Shown here one piece after another: positions 38,981-62,348 of a DNA stretch of 64,000 nt (positions are counted from its first letter, which is position 1; each line of letters opens with the position of its first letter). Origin of the DNA: Enterocytospora artemiae (lineage: Eukaryota > Microsporidia); contig JASNGC010000005.1 of the NCBI GenBank assembly GCA_038659295.1, positions 248,001-312,000 of the forward strand. Direction: 5' to 3'. Below the pieces are notes generated by a model that did not search any database, was not told where the DNA came from, and saw only the letters and a list, made by a program, of their open reading frames with translations. The position numbers were made by a program, and so were the translations under genes.

Positions 38981-39690
38981 TTGAATTCTATAATCTTTTA
39001 TATCAGCCAGAAGGTCTTTTCCAGTAACTTAATATTTACATCATGCTACAGGTGTATTTTCTTCGGGTAGTGTCTGCTAATCTGTGAGGAACTTTATATA
39101 TGATACGACTGAATTATCAGATAAAATATCTCACTAAATCTATAGTTTTGTGAATTTGTATATTAGAATCCAAAATTTTAAAACTTAATAATAAACATAA
39201 TTATATTTAATTTCTATTGTCATTCCAAAGAGAATAATACTTGAGTGTGATAAGGTGAATGACAGTTTGGCATATATTCATAAGGGTTCATATCAGACAA
39301 AAACACAACATTATAACTAGGATTCCGAATTACCTAGGTGAAGAAATAAATCAGGGCTATTATATTCCTACAGGAATTTTCACGTAAATACAAGTAAAAA
39401 ATACAATTTTTTGTGCCCTTTGCTTTAAATATAATATGTATATGTGATTTTACAATGGTTAGTAAACCCAAGTCTCCTAATTTTTAAAAAGCTGATTTGT
39501 TTTCAAGTGATAAAATTTTCAAATCTCTCTAATATCTAATAAACAATTGACCATGTAGCTTATAGACTTGGCCAATTGTTTGTTTTGAAGATAAAATATT
39601 TTGGTTAGCAACTAACCTATATGATTTTTTAATTGGTTTATAATACCCCTTAAGTATTTAAATTTTATAAATGTGATATGGGCCAGTAAA
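38981..39690. other. Intergenic region, 710 bp
   Basis: AT-rich spacer between two genes on the plus strand. No gene recognised. CCCC near 39650 has no usable ATG behind it other than the next gene, whose own GGG is closer. Confidence 0.5.
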
Positions 39691-40494
39691 ATGACAAATG
39701 AGCCATTTAAGAATCAAAATGATGGTGTTAGAGACCCCATTGTAGAGGAGCAACCAATGAGGGATATGGATTTATACTTCGAAGCGTTGAATTGTTTAGA
39801 ACAGGAAAATTTAATGCGTAAACTAACCAGAGACATTAATGGAACTAGAAATGTAGGCTTGCTGAAGGAGTTTTACTCTTGGATTAAAAGTTCTTTTAAA
39901 AGCATGTCTTCCACCCCTGTTCCATCAGAATTGATCAATGGTTTAGAATTTTGTAATAATTATTCTAAAAATCATCAAGGGGGCGGCGAGATGTTCTTTG
40001 AGTTTGAAGATGGGCGTAGATATAATGAGAAAAGTGTCAATGAGGGGCACGAACTAAATAATGATGAAGCAGATAGTATCAAAGATAATCAGCGTTTAGA
40101 TGAAGAGGTAGAAAACATTTATAGAGAAATTCCCCAGTCGAAAAAGTATGATCAAAACGTTCCGGTATATTCGATGGGATTAGCTTGTAAAAAATATCTC
40201 CAGAATCACGTTTATTTTATTACACCAGAGCTCTACCAGAATATATCTGATGCATATAATCTTGAATATCAGCAAACTGTGATTCAAAGATTGCCATTTC
40301 TTGTCTGCCATCGAAATTTATTCAAGTTTATTGTTGAAGATATTATTCCATACTCGAAGGGAGATTGGGCTGATGTTCTATTTATGAGAAAAGAGTATCC
40401 AAACTGCAATAGTGAATTAAACCAACGAATTTTAGATGATATTTCCAAGGTGGACCTTGATAGAATTCCGGAAGAGTTTTTTAGGGAATCTTAG
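39691..40494 (+). CDS. Hypothetical protein
   Basis: 267 residues, not recognised. A soluble, charged protein. The central part (about 85-150) is acidic and probably disordered. The C-terminal 110 residues look folded (VYSMGLACKKYLQNHVYFITPELYQNISDAYNLEYQQTVIQRLPFLVCHRNLFKF). No membrane segment or catalytic motif is visible. I chose the ATG at 39691, since the six codons before it open with a non-ATG codon and GGGCC lies just upstream. Confidence 0.75.
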   Translation: MTNEPFKNQNDGVRDPIVEEQPMRDMDLYFEALNCLEQENLMRKLTRDINGTRNVGLLKEFYSWIKSSFKSMSSTPVPSELINGLEFCNNYSKNHQGGGEMFFEFEDGRRYNEKSVNEGHELNNDEADSIKDNQRLDEEVENIYREIPQSKKYDQNVPVYSMGLACKKYLQNHVYFITPELYQNISDAYNLEYQQTVIQRLPFLVCHRNLFKFIVEDIIPYSKGDWADVLFMRKEYPNCNSELNQRILDDISKVDLDRIPEEFFRES

Positions 40495-40636
40495 GATATT
40501 TTATCAATAAAGTACTGTGAATTAATTGTTTGGTTTAATTTTATAGTTTCTACAGAGGAAAGGGACCAAATTCCTTTTTTATATTTAAGGGGATTTATCA
40601 CAACGTATTTCCTTATTTAAGCCTCTTGTCACCCCT

Positions 40637-41698
40637 ATGAAGGATTCTGTCTTAAAGAAGGAAGTCACCCAGAAAAAGGAAAAGTTTTCAATTTTTGGTA
40701 ATCCATTAGCAACAGAAGCTGTAAGGGATTTTGTTGAGAATTCATTTGTAAACAAATTAATTATTGATTGTAACTCTTCACTGTTAATGGACTTTGCAGT
40801 AAATGGATTGGAAACTATCTCACAATCAACAATTTTTGTTTTAAATGCGCCGGAAGTTACAAACATTGAAAATTCCATTCGCCAATCTACAAAAATTGTC
40901 TTTAAAGATACCAAACACATCTATGAAGGGGAGGTTACTGAAATTAAATCTACAAAATCTGATACTATAGTTGAATTGACCCTAATGACTGCCAAAGAAT
41001 CAAAAACAATTTCTTTATCGAAATCTCTCTTTGATACTTTAAAATATGTAAATATCGGAGATGTTATCTATGTCGAGCCATGCATGGGTATTCTGAGAAG
41101 ATTGGGAAGAAGTGAGAAGAGATTGAATGAATATGATCTTGAGGGAAATAGGTATGTACCATTGAGTAAGAATCATGTTTACCAAACTAAAGAAAAGGAA
41201 ACAATTATTAGCCTGTACGATTTAGATTATGCATATAACAAGTACAGCTCAGAAATTAATTTTTATACAAGAAATCAGGTGAATGCTTTAGTTGAAGAGT
41301 ATTTTAGTGCAGAAAGATGTAACATATGTGAGAGTATTGTCGTTATTAAGAATGCAGATTTTCTAAAACCATCCGATTTTTCCAAAATCAAAAAGTATGC
41401 ACAGAATTATACTTTTATTAAATTTATATTAATTGGCAATTTCCATGAATTTAATAATACAGGTAATGACTGTTGTTATTCATACATAAGTGATTTCTTA
41501 TTTATTCGGATTTATGATGACTTTGAGCCTTTAGAGTATTTAAAAGTATTGTCAGATAAAATAGTTGATGAAAATTATTTTGACATCGCAAAGAATTACA
41601 TCAACAAACAAAACTACCAATTAATTTCTCAACTATTGAATTTGGCAACATCTCCCGAACAGTTTGAAAAACTTTTAAAGATGCAGTTTACTCAATAA
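40637..41698 (+). CDS. RVB1: Pontin (RuvB-like 1) relative lacking the ATPase motifs
   Basis: 353 residues (about 455 in pontins). The middle is clearly Rvb1. DTKHIYEGEVTEIKS matches the start of the OB-fold insert domain. GDVIYVEPCMGILRRLGRSE and NRYVPLSKNHVYQTKEKETIISLYDLDYA match the end of the insert and the return to the AAA+ core. In contrast the P-loop is gone, with NKLIIDCNSSLLMDFAVNGLE where GPPGTGKT belongs. The Walker B position reads VVIKNADFL instead of LFVDEVH, and the N-terminus is shortened. Pontin normally forms a hexamer with reptin in INO80, SWR1 and R2TP. This copy would be a structural, non-hydrolysing subunit or a very fast-evolving one. CCCC precedes the ATG by one base, and AATAAA spans the stop. 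Confidence 0.8.
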   Translation: MKDSVLKKEVTQKKEKFSIFGNPLATEAVRDFVENSFVNKLIIDCNSSLLMDFAVNGLETISQSTIFVLNAPEVTNIENSIRQSTKIVFKDTKHIYEGEVTEIKSTKSDTIVELTLMTAKESKTISLSKSLFDTLKYVNIGDVIYVEPCMGILRRLGRSEKRLNEYDLEGNRYVPLSKNHVYQTKEKETIISLYDLDYAYNKYSSEINFYTRNQVNALVEEYFSAERCNICESIVVIKNADFLKPSDFSKIKKYAQNYTFIKFILIGNFHEFNNTGNDCCYSYISDFLFIRIYDDFEPLEYLKVLSDKIVDENYFDIAKNYINKQNYQLISQLLNLATSPEQFEKLLKMQFTQ

Positions 41699-41967
41699 AT
41701 TTTTATGAAAACTTTGGTCTTCTTACATCAAGCAACTAACCTAAAGGTTTATTTTCTAACACAGATGTTTTATAAAAATTATTTGATCTGGGCATACTGG
41801 TGAAGATGTATTAGTGTGTGTAATAAATACTAGCCATTTTGTAATTTTATTGACAATTGTTTTATCTAGAGACCATAGCCATTGACAGGTCATTTTAAAT
41901 AGCATTGAGTTGTTATGCAGTGTTCATATCTAAAATATCTTCTTTTATAATTTTTTAGCCCTCTAAA

Positions 41968-58979: not shown

Positions 58980-61900
58980 ATGAGATACAGTTATCAACTG
59001 TTCTACAGCTTGTTGTTCTTGGGTCAAGTACTTTCAAGAATATCGATAGATCAGATAGCAGAGATATTTGATACAGAAGAATATAGAAATATTGAAGAAA
59101 CAATTCTCAATCCAATATTTGGATTTATTTATTTGATGAATTGTGGACCCAACTTACGAAGATACAATCCAGAAATTAAAGTTACATATAAAGATGGTAG
59201 AAGAAACTTTGGAAGAGATAAAAGTAGTGATAGTATTACAAATCTTATGATATATTTATTTCCATCTCCAACAGGCATATTGTGTCCTTTTAGGAATATG
59301 GAGAGTAATTTTGCACATTATTACTTTGGGACTGGTAATAAGGATAAAAGTGAAAGTAGACGTAAGAGTATAAGAATGATGGCTGATGTATTCGTCAGTA
59401 TTTTTACAGAAGATAAAGCAAACGTAGCCAAGTTAACAAAAAAATCAGAGGGAGGCGAAGGAAGCGAAATTAGACGTACGGTTAATAGAATAATAAACAA
59501 TTTCAAGATAGAATCGAAATCGAAATTGTTCAAAGACAAGGACAAAGAACTCAAACACCTCTTGATTCATGGATTTATGATTGAAGTATTAGATTCCAAA
59601 GAAGATCTAGAGTTATATCTTACTACAATATTAGAGAAAATTAAAGAAAAATCATGTAAAATAGACAGATATAATATGGGTAATGATTTCACAGAAATAT
59701 TTGGAGAGTTTTATAAGAGTATTAACTCGTCATTCCCATATTCCAGGGTGAATAAACCAGTTTCGAATGCTTCAGTTCCAGTATACACAAGAGATGGTAA
59801 TACATTTGGAACTAAAATATTCTCGGATTGTGTTGAGATGGCACTGCTTCACCTTTTTAACTGCTTGTTCTGGGACGTGGAAGGGAAGTGCTATTCACTA
59901 GAACACCTGAGATTGGATGAAAAATCACCATTGGTACAATTCTACGAAACAGTTGGAAATGAACAATTCACAATCACAAGTAATACAAGAAAGGAATGGT
60001 CTCGGGTGGTACAGGACCTGGGAAGTTCTACATCTACTAAAAGAAGTAAATATTCAATAGGTAAGATTATATATGGAATTGCAAGAAATGAAGTGAAATC
60101 AGGATTGATAAATATGATGAATGTGATTGTGATGGTAGCAGTAGTACCTTCAAGAAATAAGGATATAAGGAAATTTTTGAAGGACACTAGTATGAATCTC
60201 AATAATATAGAAAAGAAATTTGGGGAGTTGGTTGATAAGTTGAAACATCCTAATTGTAAAGTTGAATGTGAATTCAAATCAATTGAAGAATTTGTATGGG
60301 TGAATGAGAATAGAACAGATTTTGGCGGGAGTATAATATTGACATTTGGAAATATAATTAACTCGAAAGAAGTCAAAATGGAGTTAAATATTGATAGTAG
60401 ACATTCTGCGATGCACTTTATCTCAGATACAATTCAAGAAGATGAATTATCAGAATTAGTTGATAAACTTACATTCAGTGGATATGAGGATGTAGCAATA
60501 CCACTTCCTATTTCATTGACTATGAAGTATTTGATGCTCTGTAATAAGGAATTCAACTTTAACATACCCGACGATTTCTTCACTAATGTGTACAATAGAA
60601 TGATCAACAACAATGAAGAGAAGGTAGAAGTACTGACATACTTGTTTGAACAGAAGGATGATAAAGAGTTTGGAAACTACTCAGATAAGATTACAAAGCA
60701 GATACTGGGCACAGTCGAGTTAGCCGATCCAGCCACACAGTATATGTTCTCACCATTTCTACCGAATGATACACTATATATAGGATATAATGCATTCGAT
60801 GTATTGGCAGAAGCATGTAAATCAAAGTCCAACATCTTGAAAGAGTACTGGGGAAAAGAGATATCAAAATTGAATTCAATTGACCTAACTACTAAGTTAT
60901 GTGATTATAATAGTGATATATTTGATAAAATTCTAAAATATATACCTTATGAGTCATTAAAAATATTGAAGATTTCAATTACTAAGGATGAAGAAGTACT
61001 ATTTATAGTTAATTTACTCGAGAAAGCTGGTAAATTGAATCATTTGGAAATAGCTTCAGATGTTATTATACCAAAAGAATCCTTAAATCGCATTGTAAAA
61101 CTACTGAAGAATATTCAATTAAGACATCTCGAATTAAACTTTCCATTATCGTCTAATGATAGCATAGAACTGTTTATTCAAATACTGAAGGGTTGTCCGA
61201 ATCTTGAATGTCTTGATATCAGCGATAATGAAATTGGAAAGTGTGATTCATCCTACTTGCCACAAATATTCAGGGCCATAAAAGAAATGAAGTCACTGAA
61301 GGAATTGAATATTAGTTATAATGAACTTGGATTGGAGAAAACTAGAATGTTTGTGGAATCAATATCTAGTTTAGATATAGAGAGTTTAGACTATTCCTCA
61401 AATAAACTGAATGAAAATGAAGCAGGATTAGCTTTTTCAGAATTATTGTCGAAGATGCCGAAGCTAAAGAAACTCTATTTGGGTGAAAACGATCTAAATC
61501 CAAGTGACATGCAGTATATATGTGGAAAATATGGTGCACTCACACTTTGCGGAGGAATAGAATATTTAAGTTTGAAGGAAAATAAGTTATCTTATAGGTC
61601 GGTGGAAGAAATAGAAAATATGTTGAATTGGTTTCCAAACTTAAAAGGTATAAATTTGGCACACAATGATATGGAGATAACGATTACTGAATTTTTTAAT
61701 ACGATTCATAGGTATGAAAAAATAACTGATGTAGCCATTGGAGGTAATAATTTTAATCTGTCAGGTGATAAATGCGAATATACTGCCAGTGACTTAAAAA
61801 TAGAGACACTTGATATCTCAGGATGCAAATTTAATAATGAGGATGCAAGGGAGATTGGTAAAATAATAGCAAAGATGACCAAATTAAAGGTATTGAATAC

Positions 61901-62348
61901 AGAAAACTGTTGTCTAAAAGATATTACCCCTATTTTGAATGGAATTAAGGGTTTAAATAAGCTGACTAATATAAACTTACAAAGAAGTGAATTGAAGTTG
62001 GAAAATTTATCAATAATGACAGAAATTATTAAAAACAATAGGTTGATTAAAGAATTAAATCTATCGTTGAATGTCTTGGGGGTAAGTACTATGGAAGCAG
62101 AAAAAAGAACCGAAGAGATCAAAAAGTTTACAGCGGTACTTGGGTCATTAAAATGCTTGGAGGATTTAAATATGGACTATATCAAATTTACAGGATCAGA
62201 TTGGAGTATAATAATCAAATCAGTGGTAAAGATTCTTTCATTGAAGAAGTTTACAATTTCATGTAAAGATATTGAATTGATGGGTATGGATACCAGAGAG
62301 ATGCTAAAGAAACTTAAGGCCAATGGAGTAGGTGTTGGTATTATATGA
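58980..62348 (+). CDS. Large secreted leucine-rich-repeat protein (microsporidian LRR family)
   Basis: 1122 residues. A signal peptide (MRYSYQLFYSLLFLGQVLS) is followed by a 600-residue region with no recognised domain. A ribonuclease-inhibitor-like LRR array covers about 655-1110, with repeats such as LKELNISYNELG, LKKLYLGENDLN and LKVLNTENCCL. No transmembrane helix or GPI-type tail is evident at the C-terminus, so secretion is inferred. CCC directly precedes the ATG. A decayed homologous copy lies 4.4 kb downstream in the same orientation, indicating a multigene family. Large LRR families with signal peptides are known in several microsporidia and are presumed to face the host. Paralogues could not be counted here. 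Confidence 0.85.
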   Translation: MRYSYQLFYSLLFLGQVLSRISIDQIAEIFDTEEYRNIEETILNPIFGFIYLMNCGPNLRRYNPEIKVTYKDGRRNFGRDKSSDSITNLMIYLFPSPTGILCPFRNMESNFAHYYFGTGNKDKSESRRKSIRMMADVFVSIFTEDKANVAKLTKKSEGGEGSEIRRTVNRIINNFKIESKSKLFKDKDKELKHLLIHGFMIEVLDSKEDLELYLTTILEKIKEKSCKIDRYNMGNDFTEIFGEFYKSINSSFPYSRVNKPVSNASVPVYTRDGNTFGTKIFSDCVEMALLHLFNCLFWDVEGKCYSLEHLRLDEKSPLVQFYETVGNEQFTITSNTRKEWSRVVQDLGSSTSTKRSKYSIGKIIYGIARNEVKSGLINMMNVIVMVAVVPSRNKDIRKFLKDTSMNLNNIEKKFGELVDKLKHPNCKVECEFKSIEEFVWVNENRTDFGGSIILTFGNIINSKEVKMELNIDSRHSAMHFISDTIQEDELSELVDKLTFSGYEDVAIPLPISLTMKYLMLCNKEFNFNIPDDFFTNVYNRMINNNEEKVEVLTYLFEQKDDKEFGNYSDKITKQILGTVELADPATQYMFSPFLPNDTLYIGYNAFDVLAEACKSKSNILKEYWGKEISKLNSIDLTTKLCDYNSDIFDKILKYIPYESLKILKISITKDEEVLFIVNLLEKAGKLNHLEIASDVIIPKESLNRIVKLLKNIQLRHLELNFPLSSNDSIELFIQILKGCPNLECLDISDNEIGKCDSSYLPQIFRAIKEMKSLKELNISYNELGLEKTRMFVESISSLDIESLDYSSNKLNENEAGLAFSELLSKMPKLKKLYLGENDLNPSDMQYICGKYGALTLCGGIEYLSLKENKLSYRSVEEIENMLNWFPNLKGINLAHNDMEITITEFFNTIHRYEKITDVAIGGNNFNLSGDKCEYTASDLKIETLDISGCKFNNEDAREIGKIIAKMTKLKVLNTENCCLKDITPILNGIKGLNKLTNINLQRSELKLENLSIMTEIIKNNRLIKELNLSLNVLGVSTMEAEKRTEEIKKFTAVLGSLKCLEDLNMDYIKFTGSDWSIIIKSVVKILSLKKFTISCKDIELMGMDTREMLKKLKANGVGVGII

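Follow-up and report, generated by a model that had tools for sequence, protein, structure and literature searches.

The microsporidian Enterocytospora artemiae was found to encode an Rvb1 (pontin) protein that lacks the catalytic motifs of its AAA+ ATPase domain, and the only Rvb2 (reptin) found in the same genome lacks them as well. The Rvb1 gene lies in a stretch of 64,000 nucleotides (assembly GCA_038659295.1, contig JASNGC010000005.1, positions 248,001 to 312,000 of the forward strand), which is referred to here as the window; the Rvb2 gene lies on another contig (locus L002). Both proteins, termed dead below, are probably pseudo-AAA+ subunits that serve a minimal INO80 core as its nucleotide-free stator. 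The features of the two genes are as follows, with positions given in the window unless L002 is named.

40637..41698, + strand: open reading frame (ORF) of the putative pseudo-ATPase Rvb1/pontin (Pfam and PDB matches, normal coding score)
40632..40635, + strand: CCC-type motif directly 5' of the ATG (motif scan; 21 of 36 window ORFs have a CCC in the 12 bases before their start)
40766..40786, + strand: former Walker A, residues 44-50 (the model retains the strand and the helix; the alignment shows no P-loop glycines, Lys or Thr)
40892..41212, + strand: domain II (OB insert) and GRSE...DLEG flank, residues 86-192 (alignment; best conserved part)
41336..41365, + strand: former Walker B, IVVIKNADFL, with Asp-Glu replaced by Lys-Asn (alignment)
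41420..41422, + strand: Lys262 (Lys in all 16 dead Rvb1 rows that cover this column; 11 of 15 canonical rows have Ile)
41528..41692, + strand: C-terminal helical lid, residues 298-352, with the sensor-2 Arg replaced (model, alignment)
41694..41699, + strand: AATAAA overlapping the stop codon (sequence, motif scan)
L002:1117-2184, contig 2, - strand: Rvb2 gene, 355 amino acids (aa; RuvB-like 2 top in PDB)

Catalytic motifs of Rvb1 and Rvb2 in E. artemiae

The Rvb1 ORF runs from an ATG to a TAA and encodes 353 aa, with residues 60-253 matching the Pfam family TIP49 (PF06068, 2.6e-26). Against solved structures, RuvB-like 1 chains were the top matches (2.1e-18), the best RuvB-like 2 chain reaching 1.3e-10. 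The coding score of 0.177 is within the norm of the window (mean 0.154 and standard deviation 0.040 for 29 other ORFs, these being the 36 window ORFs minus that of Rvb1 and six without an ATG start), and the other five frames of the ORF score -0.416 to -0.071. The N-terminus is short, with the HxHIxGLG sequence missing. The CCC before the ATG, which we take to be the microsporidian CCC-like promoter motif, is a habit of the window. The original prediction, made from the letters of the window, had described an Rvb1 with an intact frame, a promoter motif, AATAAA at its stop, a short N-terminus and no Walker A or Walker B. All of these points are borne out by the profile and structure matches, the coding score and the motif scan, the last of them by a pattern scan and alignment columns.

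Neither the P-loop pattern G-x4-GK[ST] nor the Walker B pattern hhhDE is present in this protein. In the alignment, the P-loop glycines fall on gaps or replaced residues, the Walker A Lys is Asn, the Walker B Asp and Glu are Lys and Asn, the Arg finger is Phe and the sensor-2 Arg is Gln. An Asn is retained at the sensor-1 column, which counts against total loss. A missed 5' exon carrying the P-loop, which would have undone the prediction, was rejected: no G-x4-GK[ST] was found in three frames over the 1,600 bases upstream of Rvb1, nor over the 1,600 bases upstream of the Rvb2 gene, and relatives with full N-termini are also without a P-loop.

When the whole genome (3,015,070 bases, five contigs) was searched in six frames with the TIP49 profile, four matches were obtained, three of them above the family cut-off: the window Rvb1, the L002 Rvb2, a Cdc48-like protein and a proteasomal-ATPase (Rpt)-like protein, the last assigned by its motif and by a start that resembles a coiled coil. 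This one search revealed no intact TIP49 gene, neither the second RVB1 copy that had been suggested as a check nor any third member of the family, the extra matches being the Cdc48-like and Rpt-like proteins, one of which lies above the cut-off. The L002 protein matches RuvB-like 2 first in PDB (9.1e-20; best RuvB-like 1, 8.2e-12) and its codon usage is normal. The P-loop and the Walker B Asp-Glu are missing from it, its Arg finger column holds Lys and its sensor-2 column Gln, and the sensor-1 Asn is kept. An active Rvb2 partner was accordingly rejected. The suggestion in the original prediction that Rvb2 might be doing all hydrolysis fails, as the only Rvb2 found has lost the same residues and cannot supply hydrolysis in this genome. 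Of the two dead proteins, the Rvb2 is the more remarkable.

The loss does not reflect ATPase decay throughout this genome, as other proteins show. RFC1 (encoded in the window) and the Cdc48-like and Rpt-like proteins keep their P-loops and hhhDE, and Ino80, ISWI and CHD1 keep D[DE]MGLGKT motifs.

Dead Rvb1 and Rvb2 in related microsporidia

A protein search with the window Rvb1 returned 38 proteins, among which 16 close ones (P0001-P0016, 264-408 aa) align at 31-43% identity and carry long frames. A profile built from ten rows scored the 16 dead Rvb1s at 302-503 bits, followed by a drop to 141 bits for an ordinary Rvb1, with 51 proteins listed. None of the 16 further Rvb1s contains the P-loop or the hhhDE pattern, and G-x4-GK[ST] is absent from all 17 dead Rvb1s and from all six dead Rvb2s. 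The latter comprise five of the 11 proteins listed for Rvb2, together with the L002 protein, and include two near-identical Hepatospora sequences. As a control, 40 of the remaining 41 listed proteins contain hhhDE, and the sole miss is a 194-aa fragment. The P-loop pattern was absent from eight of these 41 and lay only in domain II in two, apparently because of truncated or unusual gene models; by itself, the lack of this pattern is therefore only a weak argument. The two Gymnopus Rvb2s (P0045 and P0047) keep Walker B with the P-loop pattern only in domain II, probably through a gene-model fault.

Residues were also counted by column, over 17 dead Rvb1 rows including the window, with rows carrying a letter as denominators (P0010 and P0014 begin downstream of the P-loop region, and P0013 has a truncated end). 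The Walker A Lys is found in 2 of 15 (P0001 and P0002, glycines absent), the Walker B Asp in 4 of 16 and Glu in 1 of 16, never both together, the sensor-1 Asn in 3 of 16 and the sensor-2 Arg in 0 of 16. The Arg finger is Arg in 0 of 12, with P0006 and P0012 carrying an Arg two columns earlier. Among the six dead Rvb2s, the Walker B Asp, Glu, Arg finger and sensor-2 Arg are each found in none, and the sensor-1 Asn and the Walker A Lys each in one, the Lys being that of P0043. This metagenomic Rvb2 retains GPKGSGKR, a P-loop relic with its Ser/Thr replaced by Arg, and may be an intermediate in the loss. Such relics, together with the sensor-1 Asn kept by both proteins of E. artemiae, would also be expected if the pair bound nucleotide through an unorthodox pocket, with one subunit type capable of weak turnover. 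We regard this as improbable, given that both subunits are here without the P-loop, the Asp-Glu, the Arg finger and the sensor-2 Arg.

The best conserved part of the protein is domain II with its flank. Pairwise identity among the relatives is 0.54 for residues 81-200 and 0.68 for the flank, against 0.24-0.30 for the other parts. An AAA+ fold is still predicted, with a confident model of the window Rvb1 that includes domain II and the lid. Lys262, which is invariant among the dead Rvb1s, points by its conservation to a lineage-specific constraint within the former ATPase core. It might be argued that both genes are drifting relics that are being lost and do little or nothing, as relatives share only 24-30% identity in the former ATPase halves and the motifs have decayed to differing residues by species. 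This too we find hard to credit: the conservation of domain II and its flank, new clade-specific residues such as Lys262, the normal codon usage of both genes and the confidently predicted fold speak against it, as do the long frames of the relatives, a biased indication in that protein databases list open frames only.

A tree of 35 rows was constructed, including the 17 dead Rvb1s and the six dead Rvb2s; its branches are long, of which the program warns. The dead Rvb1s and the dead Rvb2s each split off at 100/100, and ten Rvb2 rows, dead and canonical, are held together at 100/100 with the dead Rvb1 rows outside. That the dead Rvb1s are Rvb1 is taken from the structure-match scores (RuvB-like 1 versus 2) and not from this tree. 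The lineage-specific pseudo-ATPase of the original prediction is thus upheld as far as sequence goes, in 16 further Rvb1s without motifs forming a supported group, and by the same comparison the motif loss is older than the Enterocytospora species.

An intact Rvb1 or Rvb2 could in principle lie in unassembled sequence, the dead genes being divergent extra copies, and the assembly is not fully closed: TTAG telomere arrays were found at only 4 of the 10 contig ends (L041-L050), including both ends of contig 1. This is very improbable. No other TIP49 gene was found in the six-frame search, the dead Rvb1 recurs in 16 relatives, and below the gap in profile scores no protein with a microsporidian name occurs among the 51 listed, most dead rows themselves being without a species name.

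The named members of the dead groups are Glugoides intestinalis (Rvb1) and Nucleospora cyclopteri and Hepatospora eriocheir (Rvb2), all of them Microsporidia. The Glugoides protein (P0007) is labelled 'RuvB ATP-dependent DNA helicase pontin' in its NCBI record, a name that its sequence without an ATPase motif contradicts. Nucleospora is classed in Enterocytozoonidae by taxonomy, and Hepatospora is presumably a member of Enterocytozoonida. Enterocytozoonidae is a family of Enterocytozoonida (PMC13174016), and Glugoides is included in Enterocytozoonida, which is sister to Nosematida (PMC12449221; same sister relation in PMC12558613); NCBI places Glugoides under Glugeidae. The TTAG repeat fits the group of Nosematida and Enterocytozoonida (PMC13174016). 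Primers have been published for a 'ruvb-like 1' of Nosema ceranae (PMC4320070), one of which reads PKGCGKTA in one frame, its partner reading VGDVVHI when reversed; the printed product is 323 bp, and four canonical Rvb1s all measure 372 over the corresponding span. By these primers, the N. ceranae gene is somewhat shorter there and has its P-loop intact. This species would belong to Nosematida by its genus. Rvb1 and Rvb2 of Encephalitozoon and most other Microsporidia are taken to be canonical. With thin sampling, loss on the stem of Enterocytozoonida is the simplest reading.

INO80 and R2TP components in the genome

SNF2 motors gave 11 matches in nine ORFs of the genome, eight of which were scanned against Pfam, the ninth (L027) being a near copy of L026. 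DBINO was found only in L022 (4.1e-27), which encodes an Ino80 ATPase of 874 aa with an intact motor motif and a long insert that separates the motor halves by about 150 aa, and which scores 597 bits to INO80, 432 to SRCAP and 414 to SWR1. The other ORFs carry SLIDE (ISWI-like), chromodomains (CHD1 first in PDB), a RING-bearing insert (L026), XPB (L029) or plain SNF2/helicase domains (two ORFs), and one of 1475 aa has a sub-threshold HEAT match and is presumably Mot1-like. An Ies6 of 106 aa was identified (YL1_C, 3.3e-9; Ies6 or INO80 subunit C first in PDB). Matches to the actin family comprise one actin and a protein of 549 aa only, the latter matching Arp5 over residues 66-535 (1.1e-9) and being Arp5-like by length and coverage. 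SWR1 was set aside as the host complex, as the only DBINO carrier scores as INO80, a result that does not prove the absence of SWR1.

INO80 has been reported from Encephalitozoon (PMC10158259), and an INO80 orthogroup has hits in all compared species, a member of Enterocytozoonida included (PMC13174016). The human INO80 core holds one Rvb heterohexamer (PMC5041457), and recombinant yeast INO80 with ATPase-dead Rvbs still positions nucleosomes (PMC8163841). Given that Ino80, Ies6 and an Arp5-like protein are encoded and that INO80 positions nucleosomes without the Rvb ATPase, an INO80 stator is the best explanation of the pair, and we consider it probable. We infer a ring oligomer that binds no ATP, along with its partners and its function. 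Rvb1 and Rvb2, keeping the AAA+ fold and the OB insert, would most likely still form a ring with no nucleotide turnover. This ring would be a fixed scaffold clamping the insert of Ino80 and the Arp5-Ies6 pair, while ATP would be hydrolyzed by the Ino80 motor itself in a minimal INO80 complex. The ATP-driven assembly work, such as R2TP chaperoning and the building of INO80, may have been dropped or replaced by plain folding. The wider proposal, that both subunit kinds lost catalysis on the stem of Enterocytozoonida and that the ring, now permanently free of nucleotide, survives there only as the stator of a stripped-down INO80, is judged to be evenly poised.

The dead ring could instead be an assembly chaperone of the R2TP type, acting on box C/D small nucleolar ribonucleoproteins or phosphatidylinositol 3-kinase-related kinases (PIKKs) by binding and release without ATP, with the INO80 link secondary. 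The OB insert, the best-kept part of Rvb1, is a client-binding surface, and clients exist in the genome, namely two Nop-domain proteins and two PI3/PI4-kinase-domain proteins, one of them a PIKK-like protein with FATC. PIH1, zf-HIT and Tel2 were not found in searches of the genome that had no eukaryotic positive control, the 14 control genomes being prokaryotes with no match in any for PIH1 or Tel2. As microsporidian proteins also diverge fast, a loss of R2TP is weakly supported. Against R2TP stand as well the clearly encoded INO80 motor and Ies6 and the dependence of some Rvb processes on the ATPase (review, PMC5573869), and this alternative appears unlikely, though it deserves more weight than the other rivals considered here.

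Several observations weigh against the INO80 stator. The TM-scores of the Rvb1 model to the best Rvb chains are just 0.5-0.6 of the query, and the tree does not resolve the canonical Rvb1 rows (56/28) and so does not by itself tie the dead Rvb1s to them. Only one genome yielded both dead paralogs; from Glugoides Rvb1 alone was obtained, and from Nucleospora and Hepatospora Rvb2 alone. For the Arp5-like protein, Arp6 beats Arp5 in E-value (4.5e-11) over a short stretch, and PAPA-1 (Ies2, a core INO80 subunit) and HSA were not found in the genome by searches without a eukaryotic positive control. The presence of usual R2TP clients, one PIKK-like protein with FATC and the two Nop-domain proteins, is also a point against. 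Rvb1/2 have been tied to INO80 biogenesis (PMC8163841), and a review gives Rvb ATPase activity as required for RAD51 foci (PMC5573869).

Decayed glycolysis is reportedly a trait of Enterocytozoonidae. A lost ATP supply was set aside as the cause of the motif loss, as PGK, a glycolysis enzyme, is present in the genome.

Some further features of the window and genome should be noted. A 268-aa ORF lies directly 5' of Rvb1 (window 39688-40491, + strand) with no Pfam match at E <= 1, and a leucine-rich-repeat protein of 1122 aa is encoded at 58980-62345 (+ strand). On contig 3, L026 and L027 (about 168-173.5 kb and 330-335.5 kb) form a large inverted duplication with 5067 of 5470 31-mers in common, each copy holding the same SNF2-RING ORF and its neighbor.

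Relation to known Rvb systems and meaning

The pair resembles RUVBL1/RUVBL2 (pontin/reptin, PF06068) in its paralog-specific sequence, its OB insert and GRSE...DLEG flank and its modelled AAA+ fold with lid. It differs in that both dead paralogs lack the P-loop, Walker B Asp-Glu, Arg finger and sensor-2 Arg and are about 100 aa shorter. The INO80 core module (Ino80-Rvb1/2-Arp5-Ies6-Ies2) is matched by an Ino80 with DBINO and a long insert, by Ies6 and by the Arp5-like protein. Here, however, the ring subunits are dead, Ies2 and HSA were not detected (no controls) and there is one actin beside the Arp5-like protein. Pseudo-ATPase AAA+ subunits that keep the fold without catalysis are known from mixed rings, for example subunits of the origin recognition complex and modules of dynein. 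In those rings some subunits are active, whereas both kinds are dead in the presumed ring of E. artemiae. Among the matches listed for open-licence literature on microsporidia and Rvb or INO80, no report of a dead Rvb in microsporidia was found in titles and abstract openings. A comparison of DNA damage response proteins over 68 genomes including N. cyclopteri names RUVB1 once in its available text, for long proteins (PMC12134460).

What Rvb1/2, which are present in several complexes, use ATP for is a long-standing question. As the proteins are kept and their catalytic residues lost, structural and catalytic roles of Rvb become separable by comparison, and whatever these species still do with Rvb would need no Rvb ATPase. 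The reduced INO80 core is also offered for structural work. If this reading is true, these microsporidia would be a natural experiment in which the structural role of Rvb1/2 is separated from the role driven by ATP, with the ATPase being dispensable.
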